Positions 4,328 through 29,280 of a DNA stretch of 34,191 bases are shown one piece after another. The stretch comes from Candidatus Wallbacteria bacterium (lineage in GTDB: Bacteria > Muiribacteriota > JAQTZZ01). Position 1 is the first letter of the stretch. Every line of letters begins with the position of its first letter. The position numbers were made by a program, and so were the translations under genes. Below the pieces are notes generated by a model that was not told where the DNA came from, did no database searches, and saw only the letters and a list, made by a program, of their open reading frames with translations. Location: positions 1 through 34,191 of the forward strand of contig JAQTZZ010000043.1 in the NCBI GenBank assembly GCA_028687545.1, read 5' to 3'.

Positions 4328-7300
4328 AACTGAACCTTGAAAAAGCCCGCAAACATTTAAATGAATTCGATTTCAAAGGTCTTTTCATCGAAGAACTGGG
4401 ATGGTCAAATCCTTCATCAGCTGCGACAACAAAACTACAATTGGAACAGGATTTCTCTGTCAGACAGATAGCTCAATTAACCGGAGTAGTTGTTTTCGAA
4501 ATCAGTTCGGTAAAAGGCGGTATTCCAGACGCCAAGACAAGATTGAATATTCATAAAGAGATTTCGGCGAAGTATCATGAAAATCTGATAATATTCATGG
4601 ATTCTGATCAGACTCAGAGCATGTGGTACTGGGTGAAACGGCAGGACAGTAAAAAATTTCCGATGGACCACATCTTTGTCAAAGGGCAGCCTGGAGATCT
4701 GTTTCTAAGTAAGCTCGGCTCTTTGGTGTTCGAACTCGTTGATTTCGATGAGAAAACAGGGGATGTGTCTCTGCTGGAAGTTCTAAGCAGATTAAAACAA
4801 GCGCTTGAGATCGAGCGAGTCACCAAGAAATTTTACAATGAATTCCATTTGCAGCATCTGGAATTCGTGGATCTGATCGAAGGCATTCCTGACGAGCGTT
4901 TGAGGCACTGGTATGCTTCTGTGCTTCTTAACCGTCTGATGTTTATTTATTTTCTGCAGAACAAGTATTTTCTCGATAATGGGGACAAAGATTATCTCCA
5001 GAACAAACTCGCTGATTCTAAGAAACGCGGCAAAGACCAGTATCATAAGCGATTCCTGAATGCCTTGTTCTTTGAAGGGTTTGCCAAGCCCAAAGATAAA
5101 CGCTCCGCTGAAGCTCTGAAATTACTTGGCGAAATCAAGTATCTTAACGGAGGGTTGTTCCTGCCACATCAGATTGAACAGGAATTTAAAGACAAGATCT
5201 TCATACCAGACCAGGCCTTTGAAAACCTTTATGCACTCTTCACTCGGTATTCCTGGAACCTCAATGATATTCCAGGTGGGAAAGATGATGAGATTAATCC
5301 GGACGTGTTGGGGTACATCTTCGAGAAATATATCAACCAGAAAGCATTTGGAGCTTACTACACTAGGCCGGAAATCACTGAATACCTGTGTGAACGCACC
5401 ATCCATCGCCTTCTCCTTGATCGAGTTAATGCTATGGGAAAGAATTTCACAAATATCGGTGACTTATTGCTCCGTTTGGATGCTGACCTATGCTGGCGGC
5501 TGACACAGGACACGCTGCCTAAATTGCGTATATTAGATCCGGCTTGTGGTTCAGCCGCATTCCTGGTGGCGGCGATGAAGACCCTGCTGAATATCTATTC
5601 TGCTGTGATCGGAAGAATCAAATTTCTCAATGATCATAGGTTGAATGCATGGCTTTCGGAAATCGAGAGAAGACATCCGAACATTGGATATTATATCAAG
5701 AAGACTATTATTACTGAAAATTTGTTTGGAGTGGACATCATGGAAGAAGCTGTGGAAATTGCCAAGATCCGTTTATTTTTGGCCTTAGTTTCCTCGGCTG
5801 AGAAGACAGAACAGCTTGAGCCATTGCCAAACATCGATTTCAATATTCTTACCGGTAATTCACTGATTGGCTTAATGCGGGTGGATGAAAATGAATTCGA
5901 CAAAGTACAACAACTGGAAATGTTCGGAAAATCATACAAGCAGGTGTTGGAAGAGAAAAACCGTAGAATCAGGAATTATCGCAATGTTACATGTTATTCT
6001 GACAATCTGAGCAGCATGCGTGACACTATTGATCACCAGAAACATGGAGCCATCAATACACTCAATTTAATATTGCTCAGTGAATTCATCAACAAGCTCA
6101 AAATCAAGTTTGATCAGGCTACATGGGATCTAAAAAAAAATAAAGAAGGCAAATCAGTTAAACGGGCATTGAAAGTAAAAGATATCGAAGATTTGAAGCC
6201 TTTCCACTGGGGTTTCGAGTTTGATGAAATCATGCATAAGCAAGGCGGCTTTGATGTGATTATTACTAATCCTCCGTGGGAGATTTTCAAGTCAAATGCC
6301 AAGGAGTTTTTCGAGCAACATTCAGAATTGGTAACCAAGAAAAAAATGGACATCAAGGAATTCGAAAAAGAACAGGCTGAGTTGCTCAAAGACTTAGACA
6401 TCCGTAAAGCTTGGCTGGAATATCTCAACGGATATCCGCATGTCAGCTTCTTTTTCCACACCTCTGAACAGTATAAAAATCAGATCAGTATAGTGAACGG
6501 GAAAAAGATTGGGAGCGATATTAACCTATATAAGATTTTCGTAGAACAATGTTTCAATCTTCTACGCGAAGGTGGGCAGTGTGGAATGCTAACCCCGGCT
6601 AGCCTCTACAATGATTTGGGTTGCAAACAGTTGCGTGAAATGTTATTTACACAATGTAAACTCAGATCAATGATTGGCCTATCTAATGAAAAATTTATTT
6701 TCGATAGCGTACATCATGCACAAAAATTTTGCATTTTAGTTTTTTCAAAAGGTGGAGTAACTGAAATAATTGAAAGCGCCTTCCGTATAAACCCAAGAGA
6801 AGCTATCACTCCTCAAGAACTGTTCATGTTTTTAAACTCTATTGAAAATCGCATGTACATACCTGTGAATACAATCCGAAAGTTATGTCCAGACAGCTTA
6901 TCCGTCATGGAGTTTAAAAATGATACTGATTTAATAATTGCTGAAAAGATGCTGAAATTCCCCTTGCTAGGTGAAGAAATTCCTGGGAAGTGGAATGTAA
7001 AATTTTCAAGTGAATTCCATATGACAAATGACAGCTATCTTTTTAAAACTGAGCCCGGTAAGGGTCGGTTACCGCTTTATGAAGGAAAAATGATCTGGCA
7101 GTTTGAACATAGATACGCTGAACCTCGATATTGGGTAATAGAAAATGAAGGTCGGAAAGAAATATTAGGAAAAGAAAGTGATAAAGGGCAGAGTTCGGAT
7201 TATCAGAAAATTAGAATTGGAATTAGAGCGGTAGCTTCGAATACGAATGAGCGTACTCTTGTCAGCACTATCATCCCCCCAAAAGTTTTTTGTGGAAATT

Positions 7301-7755
7301 CAGTATCAATCGAAGGTAATGTTTGTGTATCTCCAATTAACAAACTAGTAATTTGTGGGATTTTAAATAGCGTTGTTATAGATTTTTTATTAAGAATGAA
7401 AGTTTCTCAAAATGTGAATTTGTTCTATATTTATCAATTGCCTATCCCACGCTTGACCGAAAAAGATACCGTGCTTAAGCAGATTGTAGAAAGAGTCTCA
7501 CACTTGATTTGTACCACTTCTGAATTCGACGATCTTGCCAAGGAAGTTGGCCTCAAGAGCCACAACAATGGTGTAACCGATCCAGTGGAACGAGCCAAGC
7601 TGCGAGCTGAACTGGATGGCCTGATTGCTCATCTATATGGCTTGACGGAAGAGGAATTTGCTTATATTCTTACTACTTTTCCAATAGTGCCTGATCCGGT
7701 GAAGCTGGCTGCGAGGAATGCTTACAGGGATGTTGAAAGGGGATTGATAAAATGA
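4324..7755 (+). CDS. Eco57I-type N6-adenine DNA methyltransferase
   Basis: 1143 residues; predicted to transfer a methyl group from S-adenosylmethionine to the N6 of adenine in DNA. Visible motifs: YYTRPEITEYL (345 onward, motif X region), DPACGSAAFL (405 onward, SAM-binding motif I), and NPPW (649-652, catalytic motif IV). The first ~150 residues (EFDFKGLFIEELGW, VVVFEISSVKGGIPDAKTR, ENLIIFMD) match the conserved N-terminal domain of large defence-associated methyltransferases. Whether that domain has nuclease activity cannot be told by eye. The C-terminal third contains VNLFYIYQLPIPRL, typical of the target-recognition end of Eco57I/PglX-like enzymes. The ATG overlaps the helicase stop by 4 bp and the stop overlaps the ATPase start by 4 bp. 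In a defence system it would mark self DNA. Confidence 0.92.
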   Translation: MKLNLEKARKHLNEFDFKGLFIEELGWSNPSSAATTKLQLEQDFSVRQIAQLTGVVVFEISSVKGGIPDAKTRLNIHKEISAKYHENLIIFMDSDQTQSMWYWVKRQDSKKFPMDHIFVKGQPGDLFLSKLGSLVFELVDFDEKTGDVSLLEVLSRLKQALEIERVTKKFYNEFHLQHLEFVDLIEGIPDERLRHWYASVLLNRLMFIYFLQNKYFLDNGDKDYLQNKLADSKKRGKDQYHKRFLNALFFEGFAKPKDKRSAEALKLLGEIKYLNGGLFLPHQIEQEFKDKIFIPDQAFENLYALFTRYSWNLNDIPGGKDDEINPDVLGYIFEKYINQKAFGAYYTRPEITEYLCERTIHRLLLDRVNAMGKNFTNIGDLLLRLDADLCWRLTQDTLPKLRILDPACGSAAFLVAAMKTLLNIYSAVIGRIKFLNDHRLNAWLSEIERRHPNIGYYIKKTIITENLFGVDIMEEAVEIAKIRLFLALVSSAEKTEQLEPLPNIDFNILTGNSLIGLMRVDENEFDKVQQLEMFGKSYKQVLEEKNRRIRNYRNVTCYSDNLSSMRDTIDHQKHGAINTLNLILLSEFINKLKIKFDQATWDLKKNKEGKSVKRALKVKDIEDLKPFHWGFEFDEIMHKQGGFDVIITNPPWEIFKSNAKEFFEQHSELVTKKKMDIKEFEKEQAELLKDLDIRKAWLEYLNGYPHVSFFFHTSEQYKNQISIVNGKKIGSDINLYKIFVEQCFNLLREGGQCGMLTPASLYNDLGCKQLREMLFTQCKLRSMIGLSNEKFIFDSVHHAQKFCILVFSKGGVTEIIESAFRINPREAITPQELFMFLNSIENRMYIPVNTIRKLCPDSLSVMEFKNDTDLIIAEKMLKFPLLGEEIPGKWNVKFSSEFHMTNDSYLFKTEPGKGRLPLYEGKMIWQFEHRYAEPRYWVIENEGRKEILGKESDKGQSSDYQKIRIGIRAVASNTNERTLVSTIIPPKVFCGNSVSIEGNVCVSPINKLVICGILNSVVIDFLLRMKVSQNVNLFYIYQLPIPRLTEKDTVLKQIVERVSHLICTTSEFDDLAKEVGLKSHNNGVTDPVERAKLRAELDGLIAHLYGLTEEEFAYILTTFPIVPDPVKLAARNAYRDVERGLIK

Positions 7756-8906
7756 AGTGCGCACCTTTTTTACAACGAGTACAGATTAGGAATTTCAAAG
7801 CGATTATTAACAGCAAATCAATAGCATTATCCCCATTGACAGTGTTCATCGGAAACAATGGCTCAGGGAAAAGCAGTTTTATCGAAAGCTTAGAAACTTA
7901 TCGAAGCATTGTGGCAGAAGGTTTGGACTCTGCTATTTCACGATGGTACGGTTTTGAGCATGTCTGGAATAAGCAATCAAAACACAAAGAAAAAACAGAC
8001 GGTTTGCATGAAGGACCGCTGAAATTTCAATGGTCCGGTAAGATAGCAGGAAAAAATGCTAAAACAGAAATGGTTATTGATACGAAACCGGGTTTTAATG
8101 GCCAGTTTATTTTAAAAGAATCAGCGGACTGGGCAAATCTTTTTTCCTTGAATAGAGAAAATGATGGTAGATTTACTTTGAAAACATCGTTTGGTAACAA
8201 TAATGGTAAGGTAGATCTTGGACAAAGTGCTTTATCGGGTGATATCCGAAATTTTGTGCTGAGTTGGCAATTTCTCAATTTTACCCCAGATTTGATGGGA
8301 ATACCCACACAAAAGAAAATGACAGTGGAAGGCAGGCTTCTACTCAACCGAGATGGTTCTAATATTGCCCAATATCTTGCTTACATCAGGGAAAAAAATG
8401 TAGTTGTATTTAATGGCATTGTTGAGACCATGCGGTTTGTTCTTGATTACTCACAGGACTTTCAGCCGGTGGAGACTTCGGAAATTCAGAGAGCGATGTA
8501 TATCCGTATGAAAGAAAAAGAGTATGACATTCCAGGCTGGATGCTTTCGACCGGAACAATCAGGATACTTGCATTACTCGCTGTTTTGCGCAATCCTGAA
8601 CCCTCTCCAGTGATTTTCATCGAAGAGATCGAAAACGGACTTGATCCGCGAACCATGCATCTCGTATATGATGAAATCCGTGCAGCAACTAAATCAGGAA
8701 AAACTCAGATTGTTACCACTACACACTCACCGTATTTTTTAGATTTGTTACCATTGCAGACAATAATTTTGACAGAAAGGAAAAATGGGGAGAGCCCTAA
8801 TTTTTGGAGACCAGCGGAAGAAAAAGAAATCTTGGATTGGACTAAGGATTTTTCTCCTGGTGAATTGTATTCTCACGGACGGTTCAATAAGGGAGCGTTG
8901 AAGTGA
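7752..8906 (+). CDS. AAA ATPase (AAA_15/AAA_21, OLD/SMC-like)
   Basis: 384 residues. Walker A GNNGSGKSS (34-42) follows an opening typical of the family (RVQIRNFKAI). Walker B VIFIEEIENGLDP has its glutamates at 291-292, and a switch histidine lies in TTTHSP (H325). A short ABC-like head with this order is the hallmark of the AAA_15/AAA_21 families found in OLD nucleases, Gabija GajA and PARIS AriA. Unlike OLD proteins, it has no C-terminal TOPRIM domain; the next gene, overlapping by 4 bp (GTGA), may supply it in trans. The ATG overlaps the methyltransferase stop (ATGA). It probably senses or loads onto nucleic acid and controls its partner (inference). Cytoplasmic. Confidence 0.9.
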   Translation: MKCAPFLQRVQIRNFKAIINSKSIALSPLTVFIGNNGSGKSSFIESLETYRSIVAEGLDSAISRWYGFEHVWNKQSKHKEKTDGLHEGPLKFQWSGKIAGKNAKTEMVIDTKPGFNGQFILKESADWANLFSLNRENDGRFTLKTSFGNNNGKVDLGQSALSGDIRNFVLSWQFLNFTPDLMGIPTQKKMTVEGRLLLNRDGSNIAQYLAYIREKNVVVFNGIVETMRFVLDYSQDFQPVETSEIQRAMYIRMKEKEYDIPGWMLSTGTIRILALLAVLRNPEPSPVIFIEEIENGLDPRTMHLVYDEIRAATKSGKTQIVTTTHSPYFLDLLPLQTIILTERKNGESPNFWRPAEEKEILDWTKDFSPGELYSHGRFNKGALK

Positions 8907-9514
8907 AGGCTGGTTTCATTGTCGAATGCGGCCCGGAAGGCGCTGAAATCAAGGTCATTCCTCATTTGGCGCGAATGATCTTTCCCAAAGCTGAAATTAT
9001 CGAGCCGATACCTGGTGACAAAAAGCCTATTCTCAAGAAGGATTGCGGGAAATGGGTAACATTGCTTCTCGGACAGGGGTGCGATAAAGTTTTTATTATC
9101 TGGGATTTACTCCCCGATTGGGAAGAGTATGAAGGCAAAGGATGCAGACATGATGATCGCAAGCAGATTTTTGACTCGTTAGAAAAAGTAGGCATTAAAT
9201 TTGATGATCCGAGAATTTGCTTGATCTGTATCGAAAAGATGCTTGAAGCCTGGCTTCTTGCTGATGAGCGTGTCTTATCGAAGTTTCTGTCCACCGACGA
9301 ACATCCCGTTTCAGTTCCAAGAGTCAAGAAACCTGAACGGGAAAAAGATCCGAAAGCTAGATTGGATAGCGTATTTTCCCAATTTGGAATTGCAGTTAAA
9401 GGGTACACAGACGTTGAACATGCGATAAAGATAGCGCGCTCACTTGAAAATCTTAAACGATTGGAGAAACTGAAAACATTCAAAAGATTTCGAGATAAAC
9501 TTATTGGAGGATAG
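8903..9514 (+). CDS. DUF4276 family protein, TOPRIM-like
   Basis: 203 residues starting at a GTG that overlaps the ATPase stop (GTGA). The order FIVECGPEGAEIKVI (E9, E12), VFIIWDLLPDW (D68), a conserved basic/acidic helix, then ICLICIEKMLEAWLLADERVL (E111, E115, D121) matches the DUF4276 family, which is predicted to adopt a TOPRIM-like metal-binding fold. The C-terminus is lysine and arginine rich (KRLEKLKTFKRFRDK), which suits nucleic-acid contact. Pairing directly after an AAA_15/21 ATPase parallels the ATPase-TOPRIM pairs of OLD, Gabija and PARIS, so a nuclease role is a reasonable inference. Catalysis is not proven; the first motif reads ECGPEG rather than the commoner EGxTE form I recall. 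Confidence 0.75.
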   Translation: MKAGFIVECGPEGAEIKVIPHLARMIFPKAEIIEPIPGDKKPILKKDCGKWVTLLLGQGCDKVFIIWDLLPDWEEYEGKGCRHDDRKQIFDSLEKVGIKFDDPRICLICIEKMLEAWLLADERVLSKFLSTDEHPVSVPRVKKPEREKDPKARLDSVFSQFGIAVKGYTDVEHAIKIARSLENLKRLEKLKTFKRFRDKLIGG

Positions 9515-9601: not shown

Positions 9602-10633
9602 ATGGATAAAGAAAAAAATAATTATGAATCATTAAAAAGTGATCTTTTGTTTTCTTATAATGAGCAAAAGGTATTATTAAACAACCAATATAAGGAATAC
9701 AAAATTTTGTTATGGTGTTTGTTTGGGAGTTTTGTAACTATTATTGTTGTGATTGCTGGCGTTTTAGGATACTCAACAAATTCTCAAATTGATAGTATGA
9801 ATGAAAAAGTTAGTAGTTCTCTAAAAGCAGAGGAAGATAAAGCTCAAAACAAATTAAAAATTGCTATCGATTCAGTTGAGAGTGAATTGGAAAATACTCT
9901 CTCTAATGAAGTGAAACTTATTCGGGGTGAAATAGCAGCTAAAATCGAGGATGAGTTTAAAAAGGAAAATATAGAAATCGCAATTAAAAAAAAATTCAGT
10001 GAACTCACAGATCAATATATTTCGGAACTGGCTAAAAATGCTATCAAACCAATTGAAGATTCGCTTGAAATAGCAATAGATGAGGCTCATAGACAATTAA
10101 AAAAACTAAACAATTTTTACTATATAACGAACTTAGCAGATGAGGCTAAATGTGATAGTCGTGAAGCATTTTACTCATTAAAAAAAAATAGAAATGAAAG
10201 TAAAGGTAATAAAGATAATGACATTTTTATTGAAACAATTTATCTATCTGTCCTTAACTCATTTTTACCACTAATAACTGCAACACCAAATCGTGATTTT
10301 ACTTTCGATAACAAAGGTGAATCTGTAAATTTCAGTTCTCTAACATTGACGGATGAAATTGAACTCTTGTTTTCTGAACGTACCACGCTAGATTTAACCA
10401 ATATAATGAAAACACTCATATTTCAAAAAATGGAGAATTCGAAAAATAAAGATGATTTTTTATCTTTGTTTTTACGAGAAATAAATAATTCAAATCGGAT
10501 TAATCCAATTTTTGCTTCATGTTGGATTCTAAGTAAATTATACATATCAGATAATAGTAACATCACATTCAAGAATGTTGTTGATGATGAATTTTGGTTA
10601 GATTTCTTAAATAAAAGAGTAAACAGCAAATAA
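9602..10633 (+). CDS. AT-rich membrane-anchored coiled-coil protein of unknown family
   Basis: 343 residues, no family recognised. A hydrophilic N-terminus (1-35) precedes one strong transmembrane helix (about 37-60, ILLWCLFGSFVTIIVVIAGVLGY). Next comes a heptad-like charged helix (about 65-150) rich in K, E, A and I, and a mostly helical C-terminal domain. The ATG has an AGGTGG site upstream. Base composition is strikingly AT-rich, with A8-A9 runs inside the coding region (for example near 9987 and 10182), unlike the genes at 10740 onward and clearly lower in GC than the four preceding defence genes. It lies 87 bp after the DUF4276 gene on the same strand, so it may be a fifth component, for example a membrane effector or sensor, or an independent recent arrival. 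Confidence 0.7.
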   Translation: MDKEKNNYESLKSDLLFSYNEQKVLLNNQYKEYKILLWCLFGSFVTIIVVIAGVLGYSTNSQIDSMNEKVSSSLKAEEDKAQNKLKIAIDSVESELENTLSNEVKLIRGEIAAKIEDEFKKENIEIAIKKKFSELTDQYISELAKNAIKPIEDSLEIAIDEAHRQLKKLNNFYYITNLADEAKCDSREAFYSLKKNRNESKGNKDNDIFIETIYLSVLNSFLPLITATPNRDFTFDNKGESVNFSSLTLTDEIELLFSERTTLDLTNIMKTLIFQKMENSKNKDDFLSLFLREINNSNRINPIFASCWILSKLYISDNSNITFKNVVDDEFWLDFLNKRVNSK

Positions 10634-12285: not shown

Positions 12286-13062
12286 ATGATGCAGGAACTT
12301 AGCAGGATAACCATCAAGAAAGAGAAAAATGATGTGATCTTCTTCCAGGGAGATCCGGCGGACAATGCTTATATCGTGAAAAAAGGGCAGATCGAGATCT
12401 TTATTTACGACAAGAACGGCAATCCGGCAGTCCTGGACGTGATCACAGAGGGAGAAATCTTTGGCGATATGGCGCTGATCCTCAACTCACCGCGCACCGC
12501 CGGAGCCAGGGCAGTGATGGCGAGCGAGCTTTATGTGATGACCAGGGCCAACTTATACGAAATCATCGAAAAAAAACCTGAATTCGCAGTCAAACTGATC
12601 ATGATTTTCAGGGAGCGGTTGAAAAACGTCAACAATAAGCTGGTGGCTATCAAGCTTAAAAAAATGAAAGTTCCTTCGATTCAGGATTACACGGAACAGC
12701 AGAAGAGCTCACAGAAGTTGTTCAAAAAAGGTACGATAATATTCCGCGAGCTGGATGCCGGCAGATTCGGCTATATAATCCAGAAGGGACGGGTGAAACT
12801 CGTGAAGCTCAATCCTTTTCTCAAGGAAGAAACCACTCTGGCATTACTGGGGCCTGGAGAGATTTTCGGTGAACTTTCACTGCTTTCCGGGCAGAAGCGG
12901 ATCGCCACAGCAGTCTCAGATGCTGAAGATACACAGCTTCTGATGTTCGACGAGGAGAATTTTGAAAGCCTGCTGACCCATGATCTTCAGTTCTGCCTGA
13001 AAATCATGAAAATATCCTGCATGCGCATCAAGGAAATGGACGAAAAATTCGGCAAGGAATAG
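12286..13062 (+). CDS. protein with two cyclic-nucleotide-binding domains
   Basis: 258 residues made of two consecutive cNMP-binding beta-barrels (about 1-115 and 135-255). The first phosphate-binding cassette reads FGDMALILNSPRTAGARAV and keeps the R-T-A signature; the second, FGELSLLSGQKRIATAV, has R-I-A. There is no helix-turn-helix, kinase or transporter domain, so it is not a CRP-type transcription factor and probably works by protein contact. The ATG at 12286 (or the adjacent one at 12289) follows AGGTGA. The gene ends 8 bp before tldD, so it belongs to the tldD-tldE operon and may regulate or scaffold those proteins (inference). A likely source of the ligand is the class III cyclase at 20590-21867. 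Confidence 0.9.
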   Translation: MMQELSRITIKKEKNDVIFFQGDPADNAYIVKKGQIEIFIYDKNGNPAVLDVITEGEIFGDMALILNSPRTAGARAVMASELYVMTRANLYEIIEKKPEFAVKLIMIFRERLKNVNNKLVAIKLKKMKVPSIQDYTEQQKSSQKLFKKGTIIFRELDAGRFGYIIQKGRVKLVKLNPFLKEETTLALLGPGEIFGELSLLSGQKRIATAVSDAEDTQLLMFDEENFESLLTHDLQFCLKIMKISCMRIKEMDEKFGKE

Positions 13063-13070
13063 GAGTAAAC

Positions 13071-14438
13071 GTGCTCAGAAAGTTGAAATCCATCCTGCAG
13101 CTGACAACTGCAGATTATGCAGATATCAGATACGAAGTCAGAACGGATACGAGCATTGCATATAATTGTCGTGAACTCACCGGCATTGGCAGCAATTCCT
13201 GCGACGGCTTCGTGATCAGGGTCCTGAATCAAGGTGGATTTGCCACCATCGCTTTTACCAAGCCCTCAGATGCACTAAAAGCATTGAAACAGGCAGAGGT
13301 TAATGCCCTGCTCGCTTCGAAGCACAAGGAAAAACCGGTTCGAATTGGAAACCCTCAGATTAACAAGGGGCAGTTTCTGCCTGTATTGTCGATAGACCCG
13401 CGAACCGTAAGCCTGGAAGAGAAGCAGGCCTTGACTTTAAAGTACAATGAAATAGCCCTCAAGCATCCCAAGATTGTCAATACAGTGGTCAGTTACGATG
13501 AAGTGGTCCGCGAGAAGTATTTTATCAGCAGCGAGGGAGCTGAAATAAGGGAAGATCTGGTTACGACAAGGATCGGCGGAATGATCACAGCCAAGGACGG
13601 TAACCTTCTGCAGAACGTGCGCGTCAATACCGGCGGGAGCACAGGATTCGAAATTCTGCTTGGCGCTGAAGCAGCCTTTGAAAAGAAAAGGGAAATTGCG
13701 GTAGCGCTGTTGTCCGCAAAACCCCTGAAAAGCGGCACTTATAATGTGATCCTGAATCCGAGCATGTCGGGCGTATTCACCCATGAGGCTTTCGGACATT
13801 TTTCAGAGGCAGACTGCATTGAGGGTTCTCCTTCCATGAGGGCAAAGATGAAACTTGGTTCCCTCCTCGGGTCCGAGATTCTCAATATCAAGGATAACCC
13901 GACACTGCGTGGTGCGCTCGGATATTACCGCTGGGACGATGAAGGGGTGGAAGCGAGGCCTGCGCAGCTTTTAAAAAAAGGTGTGCTGGTTGGAAGACTG
14001 CATTCGCGCCGTACTGCCGAGGAGTTCGGGGAACCTGTCAGCGGGCATTGCGTTGCTGAGGATTACAGATTCGCGCCGATCATCCGGATGGGCACGATTT
14101 TCATAGAACCCGGGAAAGACGACCTGGAATCAATGCTTTCACAGCTTGGAGACGGATTGTACATACTTGATGCCAAGGGTGGGCAGACCAACGGCGAAAA
14201 CTTCACTTTTGGCGCTCAATACGGATATCTGATCAAAAACGGAAAGATCGGAGAAATGATCAGAGACATCAACATTACAGGTAATCTCTATCAGACGATG
14301 AAGAACATCAGCGCTGTCGGGTCGGATTTCGAGCTTACCAAGAGCGGCGGGTGCGGCAAAGGCCAGACCAACATCCGTTCCTGTTACGGAGGTCCCCACA
14401 TCATCATCAGAAACGTGGTGGTGGGGGGTGCAGCATGA
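13071..14438 (+). CDS. tldD: TldD-type metalloprotease subunit, copy 1
   Basis: 455 residues, usual TldD length. TldD carries the zinc site of the TldD/TldE heterodimeric protease, which degrades or matures unfolded and modified peptides in the cytoplasm (for example microcin B17 leader removal and CcdA turnover in E. coli). The metal-binding HExxxH motif is intact in THEAFGHFSEADC (H238, E239, H243). The C-terminal cysteine-containing GGCGKGQTNIRSCYGGPHI is the usual strongly conserved end. The GTG start follows AGGAGT by 4 nt. The stop overlaps the tldE ATG (ATGA). A second copy of identical length is at 16705-18072; by eye about 70 percent of residues are the same. Confidence 0.93.
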   Translation: MLRKLKSILQLTTADYADIRYEVRTDTSIAYNCRELTGIGSNSCDGFVIRVLNQGGFATIAFTKPSDALKALKQAEVNALLASKHKEKPVRIGNPQINKGQFLPVLSIDPRTVSLEEKQALTLKYNEIALKHPKIVNTVVSYDEVVREKYFISSEGAEIREDLVTTRIGGMITAKDGNLLQNVRVNTGGSTGFEILLGAEAAFEKKREIAVALLSAKPLKSGTYNVILNPSMSGVFTHEAFGHFSEADCIEGSPSMRAKMKLGSLLGSEILNIKDNPTLRGALGYYRWDDEGVEARPAQLLKKGVLVGRLHSRRTAEEFGEPVSGHCVAEDYRFAPIIRMGTIFIEPGKDDLESMLSQLGDGLYILDAKGGQTNGENFTFGAQYGYLIKNGKIGEMIRDINITGNLYQTMKNISAVGSDFELTKSGGCGKGQTNIRSCYGGPHIIIRNVVVGGAA

Positions 14439-15736
14439 AAAAATTATTGGAGATCGCCCTTAAAACCGCCGACAGTGCCGAGATTTACAAACTGGATACA
14501 ATCAATCACTCGGTTTCCTTTGAGAACTCCAGACTGATGGAAATGGAAAGCTCATTCCAGTCAGGTGTCAGCCTCAGGCTTTTGAAAAACGGCAGGCAGG
14601 GATTCGCTTTCACGAAAAATTTGCGAGACCGCCTGTGTCTGGTGAAAAATGCACTGGTTTCCCTGAGCGGCGCAGTGGAAGCTCCGTTTGAACTGCCCCG
14701 CACAGCCAAGCTTCCCCGGTTATCGACATTTGACAAGAGCATTTCGATGGTCACCACTGCGGAACTGGCTGCCGAGTGTGACAGGGTCTCGAAACTCCTG
14801 GACAGCAAAACCAAAGCCCAGGCTAATGTGGCTGGAATACTGATAACCACCAGGCTCAGCATTCTGAACAGCTCTGGGACCGATCTGAAACAGAAGCATT
14901 CAACCTATGTACTGGTGCCTGCAGTACTTTTCCCAGGCACATGCACCTCGATCAGCAGGATATCAGCGAAGAAAACATTTAAACCGGCTGACGGCAGCCT
15001 GCTCGATTTCATCACAGGGACCTACAATTCCGCCAGGGAGGAAGTTGTGCCTGCCAGCGGGAAAATGAAGGTCATGTTCATGCCTGAAGTGATGTATGCC
15101 CTTTTCTGGAGGATCAAGGCAGGAGTGAGCGGAGAGAGCCTGTATCGCAAAACCACCCCTCTGGCCGGAAAGATCGGGCAAAAAATATTTTCAGACAGGA
15201 TCACGATTTATAATGATCCGCTGGATGATTCTGAACCAGGGGCCAGATCCTTTGATGACGAAGGCACTGCCTGCCGGAAATACCCCATTGTGGAAAAGGG
15301 AGTATTCAGGAACTTCTATTTCGATCTTCTGCACGCGGGTAAAATGAAGGTCCCCCCTACAGGGAACGGCTTCAGGTCAGCCATGTGGGGTGGAGACAGA
15401 GTGACTATGAAACCCGGATCAGCCCTGACTCATCCCAGATTCAAGACAGGTTCCAAATCGTTTTCCGAAATGGTCGAATCAATGGATGAAGGCATAATCG
15501 TTGCCCACGCTTTGGGAGCTCACAGCGGTAATATCCCGAACGGAGACCTTTCCATCGGACTGTCTCCGGGTCTGTATGTCAAGGACGGGAAGATCAGGGG
15601 GCATGTCAAGGACGCCATGGTCACAGGCAATATTTACGAGATGTTCAACAATGTGCTGGAGATCGAGAATGAACTTCATGACGGAGATCCTGCCATCCTC
15701 TTTGACCAGGTCAGTGTGGCGACCAGGAAAAAGTAG
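14435..15736 (+). CDS. tldE: TldE/PmbA-type protease subunit, copy 1
   Basis: 433 residues. This is the partner of TldD that lacks the HExxxH motif and helps form the substrate chamber. Family features are the N-terminal half with GVSLRLLKNGRQGFAFTKNL and the C-terminal half with EGIIVAHALGAHSGNIPNGDLS and GHVKDAMVTGNIYEMFNNV. The start at 14435 is chosen because it overlaps the tldD stop by 4 bp and begins MKKLLEIALK, aligning with copy 2; the frame is open upstream to 14351 but that part only shadows the tldD coding sequence. It carries a 3-residue insertion (MWG in FRSAMWGGDRVTM) relative to copy 2. Confidence 0.92.
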   Translation: MKKLLEIALKTADSAEIYKLDTINHSVSFENSRLMEMESSFQSGVSLRLLKNGRQGFAFTKNLRDRLCLVKNALVSLSGAVEAPFELPRTAKLPRLSTFDKSISMVTTAELAAECDRVSKLLDSKTKAQANVAGILITTRLSILNSSGTDLKQKHSTYVLVPAVLFPGTCTSISRISAKKTFKPADGSLLDFITGTYNSAREEVVPASGKMKVMFMPEVMYALFWRIKAGVSGESLYRKTTPLAGKIGQKIFSDRITIYNDPLDDSEPGARSFDDEGTACRKYPIVEKGVFRNFYFDLLHAGKMKVPPTGNGFRSAMWGGDRVTMKPGSALTHPRFKTGSKSFSEMVESMDEGIIVAHALGAHSGNIPNGDLSIGLSPGLYVKDGKIRGHVKDAMVTGNIYEMFNNVLEIENELHDGDPAILFDQVSVATRKK

Positions 15737-15782
15737 TGGATTGTAAACGTGTTTCAGATAATCGCCTGTTCCCGTCAAAATG

Positions 15783-15814
15783 TTGGTATGTTAGTAGGTT
15801 GGTATGTTTGTATG
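15783..15814. repeat. 8-bp tandem repeat, four units
   Basis: Four consecutive octamers TTGGTATG, TTAGTAGG, TTGGTATG and TTTGTATG lie in the 92-bp gap between tldE copy 1 and the signal-peptide start of the DUF4846 gene. Related octamers occur at 121-144. Eight is not a multiple of three, so copy-number change would shift any reading frame that crosses it. Confidence 0.55.
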
Positions 15815-15828
15815 AGTGGGTATACTGT

Positions 15829-16680
15829 ATGAAATGCTGTTTTCGGTTTAGTAGTATCTTCTTGCTGTTTTTTTTCTTGGCTTTCTGCCTGCAGGCTGAA
15901 AATTATCCCTGGCTTCCTAAATATGACCGGAATCAGTCGATCGGGAAGCGATTTTCAGTGCCTTTTCCATATCAGAGAGTAAAAATGAAGACCGGGAGTT
16001 TCGGGGACTGGATCCGCAATCTTCCCCTGAAACCGGAGAACGCTCGGATCAGGCTGTACACAGGCAAGCTGCTTGACAAGCAGGATCTCCATGCAGCAGT
16101 GCTTGATCTCGACCTTCCTGCAGGAAATTATCTGAGGGGACCTTCGATCGCTCCGCGCCTGCTGTCTGAGTATCTTTTTTCCATCGGCAGGTACTGGGAG
16201 ATAGAATTTTATTATACTGAGGACCGCAGGATCGATTTCAACCTCTGGCGCACAGGGGCGAGGCCTGTGCTGTATGGGGATCACCTGCGCTGGAATGATA
16301 CTGAAAAAGAAGATTCGAGTTACGACAATTTCCGAAGATATCTGGACTACTGCCTCAGATCCCTCAGTGACGGTTCGCTTGAATTTCGCTTTGCAAAAAG
16401 TCCGAAATTAAGAGATCTGCAGATTGGCGATATTTTTCTCTCGGGCGGATATTCCGGGCATGCTGTGATGGTGGTGGACATGGCAAAAAACACCAGTACA
16501 GGAGAAAAAATATTTCTGCTGGCACAGGGTTTCACTCCCACCCAGGAATTCCATATCCTGAAAAATACGAGGGACCACATACTCGACCCCTGGTACTCGT
16601 TGAAAGATGGCGAAAAACTGCTCACTCCTGAATGCGTGTTCGAGGCAGGGGATCTGATGAGAGTAGTAGAAAAGAACTGA
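15829..16680 (+). CDS. secreted DUF4846 protein
   Basis: 283 residues from the preferred ATG, which begins a clear Sec signal peptide (MKCC, a hydrophobic run rich in F and L, cleavage after CLQA). The mature part matches DUF4846: GSFGDWIRNLPLKP, YTGKLLDKQDLHAAVLDLDL, LLSEYLF, then GDIFLSGGYSGHAVMVVDMA and LLAQGFTPTQEFHILKN. The last two segments, with GHA and a glutamine nearby, are reminiscent of papain-like NlpC/P60 folds, but enzymatic function is not established. The frame is open back to a GTG at 15736 that overlaps the tldE stop, but using it would bury the signal peptide and translate the octamer repeat. The gene sits between two tldDE pairs, so a link to their substrate is possible. 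Confidence 0.85.
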   Translation: MKCCFRFSSIFLLFFFLAFCLQAENYPWLPKYDRNQSIGKRFSVPFPYQRVKMKTGSFGDWIRNLPLKPENARIRLYTGKLLDKQDLHAAVLDLDLPAGNYLRGPSIAPRLLSEYLFSIGRYWEIEFYYTEDRRIDFNLWRTGARPVLYGDHLRWNDTEKEDSSYDNFRRYLDYCLRSLSDGSLEFRFAKSPKLRDLQIGDIFLSGGYSGHAVMVVDMAKNTSTGEKIFLLAQGFTPTQEFHILKNTRDHILDPWYSLKDGEKLLTPECVFEAGDLMRVVEKN

Positions 16681-16704
16681 TTGATTATTAACTAGGAGCA
16701 GCTC

Positions 16705-18072
16705 GTGTTTGACAAGTTGAAATCCATCCTCAGGCTCACCAATGCCGATTACGCGGATATCAGATACGAAATCAGGACAGACACCACCATATCTTTCAAT
16801 TGCCGGGAACTCACCGGCATAGGCAGCAGCTCCTGCGATGGTTTTGTGATCAGAGTTCTGAAAAACGGCGGATTCTCCTCTATCTCTTTCACGAAACCAG
16901 CTGATGCTGGAAAAGCCTTGAGACAGGCCGAAGAAAATGCCATGCTTGCTTCCGAACTCACTGCGAAACCTGTCAGACTGAACAATGTTCAGGCAATCCG
17001 GGGCATGTTTCTGCCTGAAATGTCCGAAGATCCGCGTTCCGTAAGCCTGGAAGAAAAGCAGGAACTGACCCGCAGATACAATGAAATCGCCCTCAATCAT
17101 CCCAAAGTAGTAAATACGGCGGCCAGTTACGCTGAAGTTGAGCGCGAAAAATACTTCGCCAGCACCGAAGGCGCAGAGGTCAGGGAAGACCTGATCACGA
17201 CCAGGATCGGAATCATGATCATGGCCAGGGACGGCAATCTTCTGCAGAACGTGCGTTACGCTACCGGTGGAAGCAGCGGATTTTCCTGTCTGAGGGGTGC
17301 TGAGGAAATCTTTGAGAAGAAGCGGGAGATAGCGGTTTCTCTGCTTTCAGCGGGTCCCGCGAAAAGCGGCACATATGATGTGATCCTGAATCCAAGCATG
17401 GCCGGTCTGTTCACGCACGAAGCTTTCGGGCATTTCTCTGAGGCGGACTGCATCGAGGGTTCTCCGACGATGCGTGAGAAGATGAAACTGGGCGCAGCGC
17501 TGGGATCAGATGTTTTGAACATCAAGGACGACCCCACCATGCGGGATGCTCTTGGATTTTACCATTGCGATGACGAGGGAGTGGAAGCCCGTCCGGTGCA
17601 GCTTCTGAAAAAAGGAGTGCTTGTCGGCAGGCTCCATTCGCGGCGCACTGCAGCGGATTTCGGGGAACCGGTCAGCGGTCACTGCGTGGCAGAAGATTAC
17701 AGATACGCGCCGATCATCCGCATGGGTACGATTTTCATTGAACCCGGTGCAGACAGTTTCGACACACTTCTCTCCAAACTGGGCGACGGATTGTATATAC
17801 AAGACGGCAGGGGAGGAGAGACCAGCGGCGAGAATTTCACTTTCGGCGCACAGTGCGCCTATGTTGTAGCCGGGGGCAAACTAAAGGGAATGATCAGGGA
17901 TATCAATATCTCAGGCAACCTGTATCAGACCATGAAGAACATTGTCGCAGTCGGCAATGATTTCGAACTGATCAGGTATGGCGGATGCGGCAAGATCCAG
18001 ACCAATATCCGCTCCTGCTTTGGTGGTCCGCATCTCATCATCAAAAACGTGATTGTGGGAGGTGCGGCATGA
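16705..18072 (+). CDS. tldD: TldD-type metalloprotease subunit, copy 2
   Basis: 455 residues, co-linear with copy 1 without gaps as far as I can align by eye. The zinc motif HEAFGH is intact at the same residue positions (238-243). The most divergent stretch is about residues 80-110 (SELTAKPVRLNNVQAIRGMF here versus SKHKEKPVRIGNPQINKGQF in copy 1), while the catalytic core and C-terminus are nearly identical. The GTG start has AGGAG about 10 nt upstream. The stop overlaps the second tldE start by 4 bp. Because both copies keep the catalytic residues, both are probably active; divergence suggests different substrates or partners rather than recent dosage amplification. Confidence 0.93.
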   Translation: MFDKLKSILRLTNADYADIRYEIRTDTTISFNCRELTGIGSSSCDGFVIRVLKNGGFSSISFTKPADAGKALRQAEENAMLASELTAKPVRLNNVQAIRGMFLPEMSEDPRSVSLEEKQELTRRYNEIALNHPKVVNTAASYAEVEREKYFASTEGAEVREDLITTRIGIMIMARDGNLLQNVRYATGGSSGFSCLRGAEEIFEKKREIAVSLLSAGPAKSGTYDVILNPSMAGLFTHEAFGHFSEADCIEGSPTMREKMKLGAALGSDVLNIKDDPTMRDALGFYHCDDEGVEARPVQLLKKGVLVGRLHSRRTAADFGEPVSGHCVAEDYRYAPIIRMGTIFIEPGADSFDTLLSKLGDGLYIQDGRGGETSGENFTFGAQCAYVVAGGKLKGMIRDINISGNLYQTMKNIVAVGNDFELIRYGGCGKIQTNIRSCFGGPHLIIKNVIVGGAA

Positions 18073-19361
18073 GAAAACTCCTGGAAACAGCACTCAAGGC
18101 AGCCGACGGCGTAGAAATTTACAGCCAGGACACTGTCAGACACGAAGTCTCGTTTGAGGATGCCAGGCTCACGGTCCTGGAGAGCACTCTCCAGGCCGGA
18201 GTCAGTCTCAGGCTCTTTAAAAATGGCAGGCAGGGTTTCGCTTATACCAAGAATCTCCGCGACCGCCGGAAGCTGATCGACAATGCCCTGATTTCCCTGA
18301 ATGGAGCTGTCGAGGCTCCATTTTCACTTCCAGGTTCAGCCAGACTTCCTCGTTTGTCCACATATGACAAAGCCATGGAAAAAACGACTCCCAGAGATCT
18401 TGCAGGGGAATGCCTGAGGATCTCGAAAATCCTGTCAGGCAAAACAAAAGTACAGGTTAACGTGAGCGGGGTTATGAAATTCACAAGGCTCAGCATCCTG
18501 AACAGTTCCGGAGCAGATTTGCTGCAGAAGCATTCGTCGTGCGTTCTGATGCCTTCGATACTGTTTCCAGGTACCTATGCTTCAGTCAACAGGGAATTCG
18601 TGAAAAAAACTTACGAGCCTGCTGACGATGAACTCCTCGATTTCATTGCCCGGATCTACAATGCCGCCAGGCAGGAAGTTGTGCCGGCCAGCGGGAAAAT
18701 GAAGGTAATGTTCATGCCGGAAGTGATGTATGTGTTTCTCCGGAGGATCAGATCAGGGACAAGCGGGGAGAGCCTTTATCGTAAAATCACACCTCTGGCA
18801 GATAAACTGGGGCTGAAGATTTTTTCCGATAAGATATCAATTTTCAATGATCCGCTCAACGATGCAGATCCAGGCGCCAGATCGTTCGACGATGAAGGTA
18901 CTCCCTGCCGCAGGTACCCGATTGTGGAAAAAGGAGTTTTCAGGAGTTTCTTTTTCGATCTCCTGCATGCCGGAAAGATGAAAGTAGCGCCAACAGGGAA
19001 TGGATTCAGGCAAGCTGCAGACAGAGTGACAGTGAGACCCGGATCGATCCTGATTCACCCTTTGATCGAAACCGGGGCGAAATCATTCGATGAAATGCTG
19101 AAAACGATGGATGAAGGTCTGATTGTAATGGGTGCCCTGGGTGCACACAGCGGCAACATCCCGAATGGGGATTTTTCGATTGGACTTTCACCAGGATTCT
19201 ATGTAAAGAACGGAAAAATTGTCGGACATGTCAAAGATGCCATGGTTACAGGCAATATTTACGAGATGTTCAATAATGTGCTGGAGGTCGAGAATGAACT
19301 GCATGACCGGAATCCTGCCATCCTCTTCGACCAGGTCAATGTGGAGACCGGAATAAAATAG
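18069..19361 (+). CDS. tldE: TldE/PmbA-type protease subunit, copy 2
   Basis: 430 residues, beginning MRKLLETALKAADG at an ATG overlapping the tldD copy 2 stop (ATGA). It has the same domain order as copy 1: GVSLRLFKNGRQGFAYTKNL in the first half, and EGLIVMGALGAHSGNIPNGDFS and GHVKDAMVTGNIYEMFNNVLE near the end. It has no HExxxH, as expected for this subunit. It differs from copy 1 by a 3-residue deletion in the loop FRQAADRVTV. It ends 26 bp before the convergent NamZ-family gene, with no obvious hairpin terminator in between. Confidence 0.92.
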   Translation: MRKLLETALKAADGVEIYSQDTVRHEVSFEDARLTVLESTLQAGVSLRLFKNGRQGFAYTKNLRDRRKLIDNALISLNGAVEAPFSLPGSARLPRLSTYDKAMEKTTPRDLAGECLRISKILSGKTKVQVNVSGVMKFTRLSILNSSGADLLQKHSSCVLMPSILFPGTYASVNREFVKKTYEPADDELLDFIARIYNAARQEVVPASGKMKVMFMPEVMYVFLRRIRSGTSGESLYRKITPLADKLGLKIFSDKISIFNDPLNDADPGARSFDDEGTPCRRYPIVEKGVFRSFFFDLLHAGKMKVAPTGNGFRQAADRVTVRPGSILIHPLIETGAKSFDEMLKTMDEGLIVMGALGAHSGNIPNGDFSIGLSPGFYVKNGKIVGHVKDAMVTGNIYEMFNNVLEVENELHDRNPAILFDQVNVETGIK

Positions 19362-19387: not shown

Positions 19388-20593
19388 TCAGTGGTATAAA
19401 AGCACGCTTTCCCGCTCTTCCGCCCAGGAAATTTCATCAGGTCCGGTCAGACTTTCGAGGTCTGAGGGTCCGGCTCCAGGATCGTCCACCCATTTGCGCA
19501 GCAGAACGGATCCATTGATCAGGTCGATGGCCAGGCGGTCCTGCTCGTATTCATATTTAAAGTCGCGCCAGAGGTCATAGTCCGGCTGCAGGGAGCGCAG
19601 GGCTTTGAAAGCAAGCGCCATCAGGCGCCAGGGCTTGAAATTATCGTGGTCATAAGCACGCTCCACATGGATCTGCACTCCGGCGCAGAGCTTGCCGGCA
19701 TGCTTCTGAAATGTCGGTTCGAACCGGCATTCACGCAACAGACAGCCTCTCAGCCATTGGGGGGCCAGGGCAGCCATTTTCGTCATGATGGCCTTTGGAT
19801 CAAGGTCAGGCGCGCCGAACAGTTCCAGCGGTCTTGTGGTGCCGCGTCCCTCTGACAGGCAGGTGCCTTCCACCATCACTGTTCCGGCATAGCAGCGGGC
19901 CATGGAGAGATTGGAGGCATTCGGGCTGGGATTAACCCAGTCGCGCTCTCCAAGCGGCCAGCCATAGCCTGGTCCTGAGGCTGGATTCCAGCCTTGCATT
20001 TCAATCACTTTATAATCCAGATCCAGGTGCAGCGTTTTTACGAACCAGATTGCCATTTCTCCCATGGTCAGCCCGTGGCGCATGGGGAGCGGACCTGCAC
20101 CTACGAAGCTTTCAAAGTCTTTCCGCAGTCTGAGGCCTTCGATCGGCCGGCCGGCCGGATTTGGCCTGTCCAGTACCCAGACCGCTTTTTGTTTATTTGC
20201 CGCCGCTTCAAGCACATAGCGCAGGGTGGTCACAAAGGTGTAGATACGGCAGCCCAGATCCTGCAAGTCCACAAGCAGAATGTCGAAAGTGTCCATCATC
20301 GCGGGAGTGGGGCGGCGTACTTCTCCGTACAGGCTGAATACGGGTATGCCAAGCGCAGGATCGATGAAATCCGGAGATTCGATCATGTTGTCCTGCTTGT
20401 CCCCCCGAAGTCCATGCTGGGGGCCGAAGGCGGCAGTGAGTTTGAGTCCTTTGACGGCAGCCAGGGCGTCCAGAGAATGCACAAGGTCCCGGGTTACTGA
20501 TGCCGGGTGGGCTAACAGGGCGACCTGTTTTCCTGAGAGCTGCTTTTGCAGGTTCTGATCCGCAATCAAGCGGTCGATACCGAAGTTGATCAT
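19388..20593 (-). CDS. DUF1343 / NamZ-family exo-N-acetylmuramidase-like protein
   Basis: 401 residues of the DUF1343 family, whose characterised member NamZ removes N-acetylmuramic acid from the non-reducing end of peptidoglycan fragments. Signature segments: AAFGPQHGLRGDKQDNMIES, PVFSLYGEVRRPTP, ILLVDLQDLGCRIYTFVTT, VLDRPNPAGRPIEGL and MRHGLTMGEMA. This belongs to the PQHG/DNMIES subgroup. No signal peptide is visible in this copy, which would place it in the cytoplasm, where it could recycle imported muropeptides (inference). The start at 20593 is preferred: its ATG overlaps the stop of the upstream cyclase gene by 4 bp. An upstream in-frame ATG at 20614 would add 7 residues. Confidence 0.9.
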   Translation of the reverse strand: MINFGIDRLIADQNLQKQLSGKQVALLAHPASVTRDLVHSLDALAAVKGLKLTAAFGPQHGLRGDKQDNMIESPDFIDPALGIPVFSLYGEVRRPTPAMMDTFDILLVDLQDLGCRIYTFVTTLRYVLEAAANKQKAVWVLDRPNPAGRPIEGLRLRKDFESFVGAGPLPMRHGLTMGEMAIWFVKTLHLDLDYKVIEMQGWNPASGPGYGWPLGERDWVNPSPNASNLSMARCYAGTVMVEGTCLSEGRGTTRPLELFGAPDLDPKAIMTKMAALAPQWLRGCLLRECRFEPTFQKHAGKLCAGVQIHVERAYDHDNFKPWRLMALAFKALRSLQPDYDLWRDFKYEYEQDRLAIDLINGSVLLRKWVDDPGAGPSDLESLTGPDEISWAEERESVLLYH

Positions 20594-21867
20594 TCCACAA
20601 CTCTGGTGCCGCAAGAGTTGTCGTAAAAGGTCCGCTGATTGAAAAGCGGCAGACAGCCGATCCCAACCAGCAGCACTGAAGCAAGAAAAAATGCACTCCT
20701 TTTGGCTGAGAGGGCAAATGGAAGATTTCCTCCATTTTCGGTGATCACTGCATTGTGCGAGATCACCTGGCCGTAACTCGCTCCGCGCCTGGACCAGAGG
20801 ACTGCGAAATACAGCCAGAAGAGGAGGAGAGGGTATTTAAGGTTGTAATAAATCAGGCCTTCTGAAATTCCCCTGCTTCTGACCATATAGCTCTTGCCGC
20901 CGATGTGCTCGCTGTGCCAGCGGTCGCTCTGATCTGTATATTTGCTGTTTTGATAATATGTATCTGAGTCGATCCTGGCAGAACCGAAGATAAACCCGCC
21001 GATCACCCAGAAACCGAGATTGAGCACCAGATACAAAACCAGCAGGATCACAGCGTCCACAAGAAAAGACTTGATTCTGCCTGCAGTGCCTGCATCCCGG
21101 TGTTCATCATTTTTCTTTGTCTCCAGAACGGTTTTCTGCCCGAGCTGCCTGGTGATTTCATCCTTGATCTGAGTAATATTTTCACCCAGGTTTTTTTCCT
21201 TGAGGAAAGAATTGACTGCTTCGGTCCAGTCGTTGATATTGGTCTTGACGCTTTTCTCCTCACCTCCTACCACACGTTCCACAAGCTGGAGCAGCTTGGC
21301 CGGGATGGCGGTGAGCTTCTGCTTTTCCAGGGGGATCTTATAAACAGTCACCGGGTCAGGGATGCCTTTGAGCTGTTTTGGTCCTATTTTTTCAGCTATG
21401 ATTTCATTTCTGTTCATCAGGAGAAAGGTGGATTCCGAGATTCCGATACTGCCGCCTGGAAAGCAGGGCAGGCCTTCCATCCTGGCAGTGACATTGACTG
21501 CAGTGCCGAAAATGTCTTTCTCCTGCAGAGTGACATCGCCGGTATTGATCACTACCCTCAGTTTCATTTTCTTGAAATCTTCCTGCTGGCGCTCGTTATA
21601 CTCGCGCAGGAGAAGTTGGATCACTATGGAACAGACGACAGCGTCTGTGGCACTCTGAAAAGTGCAGAGCAGGGCGTCACCGATCGATTTAATGATCACT
21701 CCGTTGTAAAATTCGATCACAGGCATCATCAATTGATTATGCCTTCTGAGAAGGCTCATGATTTCTTCCCTGGAAGATTGGGAGCTGGTGTTGGTGTAAC
21801 CCTGAATGTCAGTCAGGAGAATCGAGAGATTCTGAGATTTGGAACTGGCTTTTTTTAATCCGACCAT
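20590..21867 (-). CDS. class III adenylate/guanylate cyclase fused to RDD membrane domain
   Basis: 425 residues. The first ~175 form a class III cyclase domain: metal-binding D20 (ILLTDIQGYT) and D64 (IKSIGDALL), K60 just before it at the usual purine-recognition position, and transition-state N125 and R129 in FGTAVNVTARME. All expected residues are there, so cAMP or cGMP synthesis is likely. A charged linker (about 210-260) leads to a C-terminal domain with three or so membrane helices beginning AGTAGRIKSFLVDAVILLVLY, typical of RDD proteins, which are putative small-molecule or ion transporters. An AAAGG site precedes the ATG. It is coupled to the NamZ-family gene by a 4-bp overlap, suggesting a joint response to cell-wall fragments (inference). 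Confidence 0.88.
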   Translation of the reverse strand: MVGLKKASSKSQNLSILLTDIQGYTNTSSQSSREEIMSLLRRHNQLMMPVIEFYNGVIIKSIGDALLCTFQSATDAVVCSIVIQLLLREYNERQQEDFKKMKLRVVINTGDVTLQEKDIFGTAVNVTARMEGLPCFPGGSIGISESTFLLMNRNEIIAEKIGPKQLKGIPDPVTVYKIPLEKQKLTAIPAKLLQLVERVVGGEEKSVKTNINDWTEAVNSFLKEKNLGENITQIKDEITRQLGQKTVLETKKNDEHRDAGTAGRIKSFLVDAVILLVLYLVLNLGFWVIGGFIFGSARIDSDTYYQNSKYTDQSDRWHSEHIGGKSYMVRSRGISEGLIYYNLKYPLLLFWLYFAVLWSRRGASYGQVISHNAVITENGGNLPFALSAKRSAFFLASVLLVGIGCLPLFNQRTFYDNSCGTRVVE

Positions 21868-27990: not shown

Positions 27991-29280
27991 ATGCAGATGA
28001 AGGGAGCCATTTTGGACCCAATTACTTTAGCATTGATTGTTACGTACTTCGTTATCCCGGTTAGTGTACCTTTGTTGCTGCTTTTGCTTACTTCACCTAT
28101 CTGGTGGCCCTGGACCGAAAAAAAGGCGCTAAGATTCATCAAGTTATTTGCCATGCCCTGGATTCCTATATTCTTCATTAATTTCTTGGGGATGTTTTTA
28201 ATTATCTACATTGCTCATACACGCTTGTATTTTGCCCAACCTCGTGGTGGCCACTGGGGTTTTGCACCGGACAGGACAGAATGGAAGCCACCTTATTCAG
28301 AAGATCATCCGTTTAATTCTCGGGAGTATGAAAAGAAGAAAAAAGAAGCAGAAGAGAAAAACCGTCCACTGAAAAAAATATTCTTCGCACAGACCACTTG
28401 GGAAGTTCAAGCATTGCTCGATCAAGGCGTTGATGTAAATGCTGAGGACGAAAACGGAATCACCCCACTGATGTTCGCAGTTCACAGGCGGGACTTGACA
28501 ATTACAAAATATCTAATTGGAAAAGGCGCTGACGTGGAGCATTTAGATGGTGTAGATCACTATCCGATTTTTCTGGAACTGTTTTACGGGAATTCAAATA
28601 TTGTTATCAATTACCATGTGAAAGAGATTAAAAGCATGCCAAGCATGGAATTGTTAGAATTACTTGTACGTTCAGGTGCCGACATCGACCGCTTTTTTAA
28701 AACAGAATGCCAACACTGCAGTATTAACTGTGATGTGCTGAAAATGTGCAAGTTAATGCATGCCAAAGACAGTGACAAAATTAACCTGATAGGTGACGGG
28801 CATGAAAACAGATCAATACAAAAATGGACGATTTATACGTTTTTCATCGTATGTCCGATCCTGGTTTTTCTGAATTTTGCCAGAGCGGTCTGGCTTGATG
28901 TCAAGGGCGACTTGTATAAAAAGCAGTTATACTTCTCCTTTTTTATGCTGATTATTCTTGCGTTTATCAGCCCGTTTTTTGATTATCTGGATTATGCTGT
29001 GTTGATCAATGGCTTCAGAAATTTCCGCTTTGAATTAACGACTTTTTTGGCTTTCCTTTTGCCCAATCTGCTCATGATGTTCATTCTCTGGGCCAATTGC
29101 AGAAAAATCACAGCACTGCGGATGAGAAATATCCTGCCTGATTTTCATGATATTGCAGTAAAAATAGCGCTTCTGATCCTGTATGGTTTTTCTGCCATTG
29201 CCTTTCAGAGTTACATGGTGCTGCAAATCATTCTAAGAATAAATTCTTTTGGAGATTGGGCTTTTAGAAACTGGAAATAA
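27991..29280 (+). CDS. membrane protein with central ankyrin repeats
   Basis: 429 residues. Two hydrophobic helices near the N-terminus (about 12-36 and 52-76) and about four near the C-terminus (from about 276 to 415) flank a soluble middle section. That section has a charged helix (KKKKEAEEKN) and about three ankyrin repeats (about 125-235), for example VQALLDQGVDVNAEDENGITPLMFA and LIGKGADVEHLDG. Such repeats bind proteins. No transporter family is recognised in the membrane parts. The start is uncertain: ATG at 27991 or 27997, neither with a strong ribosome binding site. It has no close co-directional neighbour, so it is likely a single-gene unit. Confidence 0.75.
   Translation: MQMKGAILDPITLALIVTYFVIPVSVPLLLLLLTSPIWWPWTEKKALRFIKLFAMPWIPIFFINFLGMFLIIYIAHTRLYFAQPRGGHWGFAPDRTEWKPPYSEDHPFNSREYEKKKKEAEEKNRPLKKIFFAQTTWEVQALLDQGVDVNAEDENGITPLMFAVHRRDLTITKYLIGKGADVEHLDGVDHYPIFLELFYGNSNIVINYHVKEIKSMPSMELLELLVRSGADIDRFFKTECQHCSINCDVLKMCKLMHAKDSDKINLIGDGHENRSIQKWTIYTFFIVCPILVFLNFARAVWLDVKGDLYKKQLYFSFFMLIILAFISPFFDYLDYAVLINGFRNFRFELTTFLAFLLPNLLMMFILWANCRKITALRMRNILPDFHDIAVKIALLILYGFSAIAFQSYMVLQIILRINSFGDWAFRNWK

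Follow-up and report, generated by a model that had tools for sequence, protein, structure and literature searches.

Two copies of a two-part peptidase lying side by side raise the question of where the second copy came from and what it is kept for. We addressed it in a 34,191-nucleotide stretch of DNA from a Candidatus Wallbacteria bacterium (hereafter the window), for which a preliminary description, made from the letters alone, had reported two tandem tldD-tldE pairs with a DUF4846 gene between them.

Organisation of the tld locus

This arrangement was borne out. The order tldD1-tldE1-DUF4846-tldD2-tldE2 runs head to tail across positions 13071-19361, and all five genes are intact, lie on the forward strand and have Pfam matches over cut-off (Table 1). 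Both tldD genes carry AGGAG a few bases 5' of their GTG start, and each is coupled to its tldE through ATGA. The stop of a gene for a protein with two cyclic-nucleotide-binding (cNMP) domains lies 8 bases 5' of tldD1, the widest intra-operon gap is about 93 bases, and the five genes together with the cNMP gene form one apparent operon. At its far end, only 26 bases separate tldE2 from a convergent NamZ gene, so that a second DUF4846 gene cannot fit there.

Table 1 Features of the tld locus (window positions) and copies of an interspersed repeat (positions in the named loci)
Feature	Position	Strand	Basis and remarks
cNMP protein, two cyclic-nucleotide-binding domains	12286..13062	+	Pfam cNMP_binding, 2 stretches; no other Pfam domain
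tldD1, catalytic subunit, HEAFGH at residue 238, CGK at 428	13071..14438	+	Pfam, motif positions; GTG start
tldE1, partner subunit without HExxxH	14435..15736	+	Pfam, motif scan; ATGA overlap with tldD1
DUF4846 gene	frame 15736..16680, likely ATG start 15829	+	Pfam DUF4846, E 1.5e-69; invariant GD, near-invariant Arg
tldD2, 75.4% identical to tldD1, active site intact	16705..18072	+	Pfam, alignment, motifs; GTG start
tldE2, 70.7% identical to tldE1	18069..19361	+	Pfam, alignment; ATGA overlap with tldD2
NamZ-type exo-beta-N-acetylmuramidase, convergent	19388..20614	-	Pfam NamZ_N/NamZ_C
Class III cyclase domain and RDD membrane domain	20590..21867	-	Pfam; tblastn orthologue (58%) in family relative
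Interspersed repeat copies	L015 about 3922-4101; L157 2883-3065 and 14636-14798; L126 10177-10304

Elsewhere, the window carries a defence-like block (932-9514) of an HKD+SNF2 helicase, a type IIG-like restriction-methyltransferase and an AAA_21 + DUF4276 pair that matches PADLOC HEC-01A/HEC-01B. Directly after this pair, at 9602-10633, is a 343-aa protein with no Pfam match and a weak PADLOC match to GajB (1.5e-4). Two ankyrin-repeat proteins are encoded at 27991-29280 and 32471-34045, the second consisting almost entirely of ankyrin repeats.

Both pairs retain the active site and are under constraint

TldD1 and TldD2 each have 455 residues and align without a single gap (87% positives), while TldE1 and TldE2 align over 430 residues with one gap; the difference of roughly 30 percent given in the preliminary description holds for TldE (29%) and not for TldD (25%). 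Its statement that HExxxH is intact in both TldD copies was confirmed, HEAFGH standing at residue 238 in each, and TldD2 has HEAFGH, CGK and IIRM at positions matching those of TldD1. A motif scan found no HExxxH in TldE1 or TldE2. All four proteins score over the Pfam cut-off for PmbA_TldD domains, the central one of which Pfam did not report for either TldE.

TldD1 matched the solved structures of E. coli TldD at 2.8e-33. The part of PMC5810440 considered here names the E. coli residues His262, Glu263, His267, Glu270, Asp272, Arg362, Cys454 and Lys456, which serve metal binding, catalysis and clamp tethering, and every one of these named residues is identical in TldD1. The third-ligand Cys near the C-terminus is thereby present, and lies in the CGK found at 428 in both copies.

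We then compared substitution rates by the Nei-Gojobori method (NG86), obtaining dN/dS values of 0.166/1.569 for the TldD copies and 0.182/1.487 for the TldE copies, where dS is near saturation and the resulting ratio of about 0.1 is rough. Both copies are constrained and kept under purifying selection. Identity to the closest family relative is near-equal within each pair of copies (60 and 61% for TldD, 50 and 49% for TldE), and neither copy has therefore run away. With the metal ligands retained, these ratios agree with the earlier view that both pairs look active, as predicted enzymes.

Site by site, 159 columns are conserved across 90% or more of a set of 47 further TldDs of the clade; TldD1 alone departs at 3 and TldD2 alone at 6 of them, and both depart at 2, one being the start residue. 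Other clade members depart at a median of 4 of these columns (range 0-23). For these counts 30 named loci were set aside as distant, partial or duplicate, giving 47 TldD and 44 TldE rows. The departures particular to each copy could reflect changed function in either TldD.

Several pairs are common in the genome and phylum

The duplication had been considered remarkable on the premise that most bacteria have a single pair. In this genome, PF19289 has 10 matches, corresponding to five pairs: two on the contig of the window and one each on contigs C73, C10 and C61. Matches to PF19289 occur in 47 of the 56 genomes searched (this one included); by hand count, 22 of 39 genomes of the same phylum have at least 4 TldD/E matches and 6 have at least 6, a few proteins yielding two PF19289 matches each. 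Since several pairs are common in the phylum, the single-pair premise does not apply here, and for this phylum the duplication is not remarkable on that ground.

The window proteins share with E. coli TldD/TldE (PmbA; MEROPS M103) the same Pfam domains, HExxxH and Cys in TldD, and a TldE without HExxxH; they differ in length (about 430-455 aa, against 450-481 in E. coli) and in that their genes are adjacent, overlapping and duplicated in tandem. Scores for the NCBIfam equivalogs of E. coli or archaeal TldD stayed below the cut-offs (251 of the required 635 bits, and 113 of 513), which places the proteins in a separate subfamily rather than among the equivalogs. Their clade comprises TldDs of Stahlbacteria, Cloacimonadota, Nitrospirota, Dehalococcoidia and relatives, with about 50-67% identity, the same tldD-tldE order and a single pair. 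Unlike the window, and leaving the family relative aside, the clade loci that were retrieved show no tandem copy belonging to this clade, and no cNMP homologue or DUF4846 beside the pair. Among 53 clustered loci, no family beyond TldD/E recurs in more than 5, and context therefore gives no function.

The second pair probably arose by lineage-specific tandem duplication

Phylogenies of the two subunits were built from matches over 340 residues only (79 TldD and 61 TldE, besides those of the window); L015 was dropped as a double of L127, L063-L068, L033, L051 and L052 were left out of the TldD tree as distant or partial, and L060 was left out of the TldE tree. The window copies are sisters in the TldD tree (66 rows; SH-aLRT 100), where the family relative joins them with 92, and again in the TldE tree (62 rows; SH-aLRT 99), where the relative falls with them in an unresolved group. 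Both trees contain very long branches, one of which (L098) sits in that unresolved TldE group.

The family relative (G001, loci L015/L127), by inference a Candidatus Wallbacteria MAG, has the order cNMP-tldD-tldE-DUF4846 with a single pair and a convergent cyclase. Its cNMP homologue (66%, partial) lies directly upstream of tldD, and its DUF4846 and cyclase are 41% and 58% (tblastn) identical to those of the window. No NamZ match was found at these loci, including between DUF4846 and the cyclase. The window thus has the same order as its relative, with tldD2-tldE2 and NamZ inserted before the cyclase. This synteny with a single-pair relative, together with the sister grouping in separate trees, points to tandem copying of tldDE after the split from that genus; pair 1 would keep the ancestral place, and DUF4846 would have been in the operon before the duplication. 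The dating rests on one relative of the family and holds against that genus only, and gene conversion could have lowered the apparent age of the duplication.

In a survey of 381 genomes (listing read by eye), 44 had a TldD1 match with an E value of 1e-80 or lower, and the present genome alone has two TldDs at least 50% identical to TldD1; two others have two TldD1 matches, the second at about 40% and on a separate contig.

Horizontal acquisition of the second pair, which the preliminary description had named as one finding that would overturn its reading, might be suspected from the scatter of this TldD subfamily across many phyla and from some Stahlbacteria/WOR-3 TldDs whose identity, at 65-67%, exceeds the 60% of the family relative. 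Against this, both subunits group as sisters with near-full support, the GC3 of both tld copies resembles that of neighbouring genes, and a horizontal origin would survive only if the donor of copy 2 were a very close relative absent from the sample. We rejected it on the sister grouping in the two trees and regard it as extremely unlikely; lineage-specific tandem duplication is the origin to which the sequences point.

The intervening DUF4846 protein

The DUF4846 frame matches PF16138 at 234.6 bits (cut-off 37). Starting from the likely ATG, the protein has a hydrophobic, signal-peptide-like N-terminus (by eye) and is likely exported. An NlpC/P60-like fold has been proposed for DUF4846 on the basis of a GD motif, in the part of PMC10318531 considered here. 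Consistent with this, GD (expected strand 1) is present in 12 of 12 aligned DUF4846 rows and a downstream Arg (expected strand 5) in 11, the remaining row having a gap; strands and fold alike are putative. In contrast to NlpC/P60-like peptidases, the family has no conserved catalytic Cys: none was found at the aligned place, by our own reading of the alignment, in the 12 rows. Ser occupies the presumed nucleophile place in 7 of the 12 and His is present in 7. The syntenic homologue of the family relative keeps the His but has Phe in place of Ser, which makes catalysis doubtful. An AlphaFold model from two sequences had a mean pLDDT of 36, and the best match in a PDB profile search had an E value of 0.059. 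Overall, the protein resembles an exported NlpC/P60-like domain that lacks a conserved catalytic cysteine.

A DUF4846 gene is present in 7 of 56 genomes; in two of these (this genome and the relative) it adjoins TldD/E of the present clade, and three further copies lie on other contigs of this genome. The earlier suggestion that it may share in the same function gains from its presence in the tld operon of another genus; it is an older member of the tld operon, not a general TldD/E partner.

A short GTTGGTATG-like repeat lies between tldE1 and DUF4846 (15780-15815) and is found again in the pair on contig C73, separating its two Tld genes (L121 8076-8164). Separately, an interspersed, non-coding-looking repeat, up to 89% identical, is common to the two genera and in the relative lies beside DUF4846 (Table 1).

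What the two pairs may do

Gene content, order, homology, tree, synteny and selection were observed as described above. From them, we propose an ancestral operon of cyclic-nucleotide-binding protein, tldD, tldE and DUF4846, whose tldD-tldE unit would have been copied in tandem and inserted after DUF4846, after the split from the nearest sampled genus, with both copies then retained by purifying selection. Each pair would form a TldD/E-type heterodimeric metallopeptidase, in which TldD would hold the metal via HExxxH and Cys and TldE would complete a closed chamber where unfolded peptides are cut. Its likeliest use would be breaking down or trimming peptides in the cytoplasm, copy 2 adding dosage or a shifted substrate range, and DUF4846 would act outside the cytoplasm in a linked but separate step. 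Peptidase activity, heterodimer formation, substrate and division of labour are predictions from sequence; as a whole, an operon with a duplicated tldD-tldE unit, two kept heterodimeric peptidases and an extracytoplasmic DUF4846 appears likely. We infer that the two pairs are general peptidases of the TldD/E type, with a role in dosage or a shifted specificity, because no RiPP context is visible and because the single pair of other phyla has no widely recurring neighbour.

Other readings of the same genes differ in what they ask of the locus. Subunits might be exchanged, TldD1 pairing with TldE2 and TldD2 with TldE1, to give up to four heterodimers with a combinatorial substrate range: at 75 and 71% identity between the copies, and with nearly symmetric divergence, the interfaces may still fit, and all four subunit genes share one apparent operon. 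We consider such mixing possible but somewhat doubtful. That the pairs are instead proteases devoted to maturing two ribosomal, modified peptides, a reading that takes up the earlier suggestion of modified peptides as substrates, draws on TldD/E enzymes that mature microcin B17, ammosamide and biphenomycin-type peptides (according to the parts of PMC10885120, PMC12424672 and PMC12707348 considered here) and on one PqqD and 26 SPASM matches in the genome. All of these matches lie on contigs other than the tld contig, YcaO, MNIO and LanC families have zero matches in the genome, the operon leaves no precursor-sized gap and the genes around it serve housekeeping, signalling or defence. The PqqD locus and three SPASM regions (L154-L157), the latter appearing by eye to be large radical SAM proteins, had no TldD/E match and were rejected as RiPP context. 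The suggestion is left without local support, and we judge it improbable.

The cNMP gene, retained 5' of tldD in the family relative as well, invites a further scheme, in which the cNMP protein regulates the TldD/E chamber, the neighbouring cyclase feeds it, the two heterodimers act in parallel or mixed, and DUF4846 is an exported partner. Pfam found no DNA-binding domain in the cNMP protein, and a role as regulatory subunit, resting on two related genomes, is possible. With 24 matches in this genome and 17 in the relative, class III cyclases are so frequent that a cyclase neighbour is weak evidence of signalling; for the same reason we discounted a second cyclase beside an unrelated TldD/E pair in another genome (G004, L137). 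An open-library search found no paper with both 'cyclic nucleotide-binding' and 'TldD'. There is little likelihood that this cyclic-nucleotide-controlled system is correct in full.

Two observations from other contigs of this genome stand apart from these readings. At L154 4206-6840 (contig C12), the PqqD protein adjoins a decarboxylase-like protein (by eye), which has an N-terminal YxxP-type stretch resembling a recognition leader. At L157 5418-14614 (contig C2) are three similar radical SAM proteins in tandem, each about 880-1110 aa long.

Implications

Taken together, this analysis describes what is mostly an ordinary gene-family expansion, a known two-part enzyme duplicated within a conserved operon. 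It offers an uncomplicated natural example of a duplicated heterodimeric peptidase that is still under constraint and, by prediction, apparently active, in which cross-pairing and substrate shift are directly testable. It also links a TldD/E operon, in two genera, with DUF4846 and with a protein that has two cyclic-nucleotide-binding domains.
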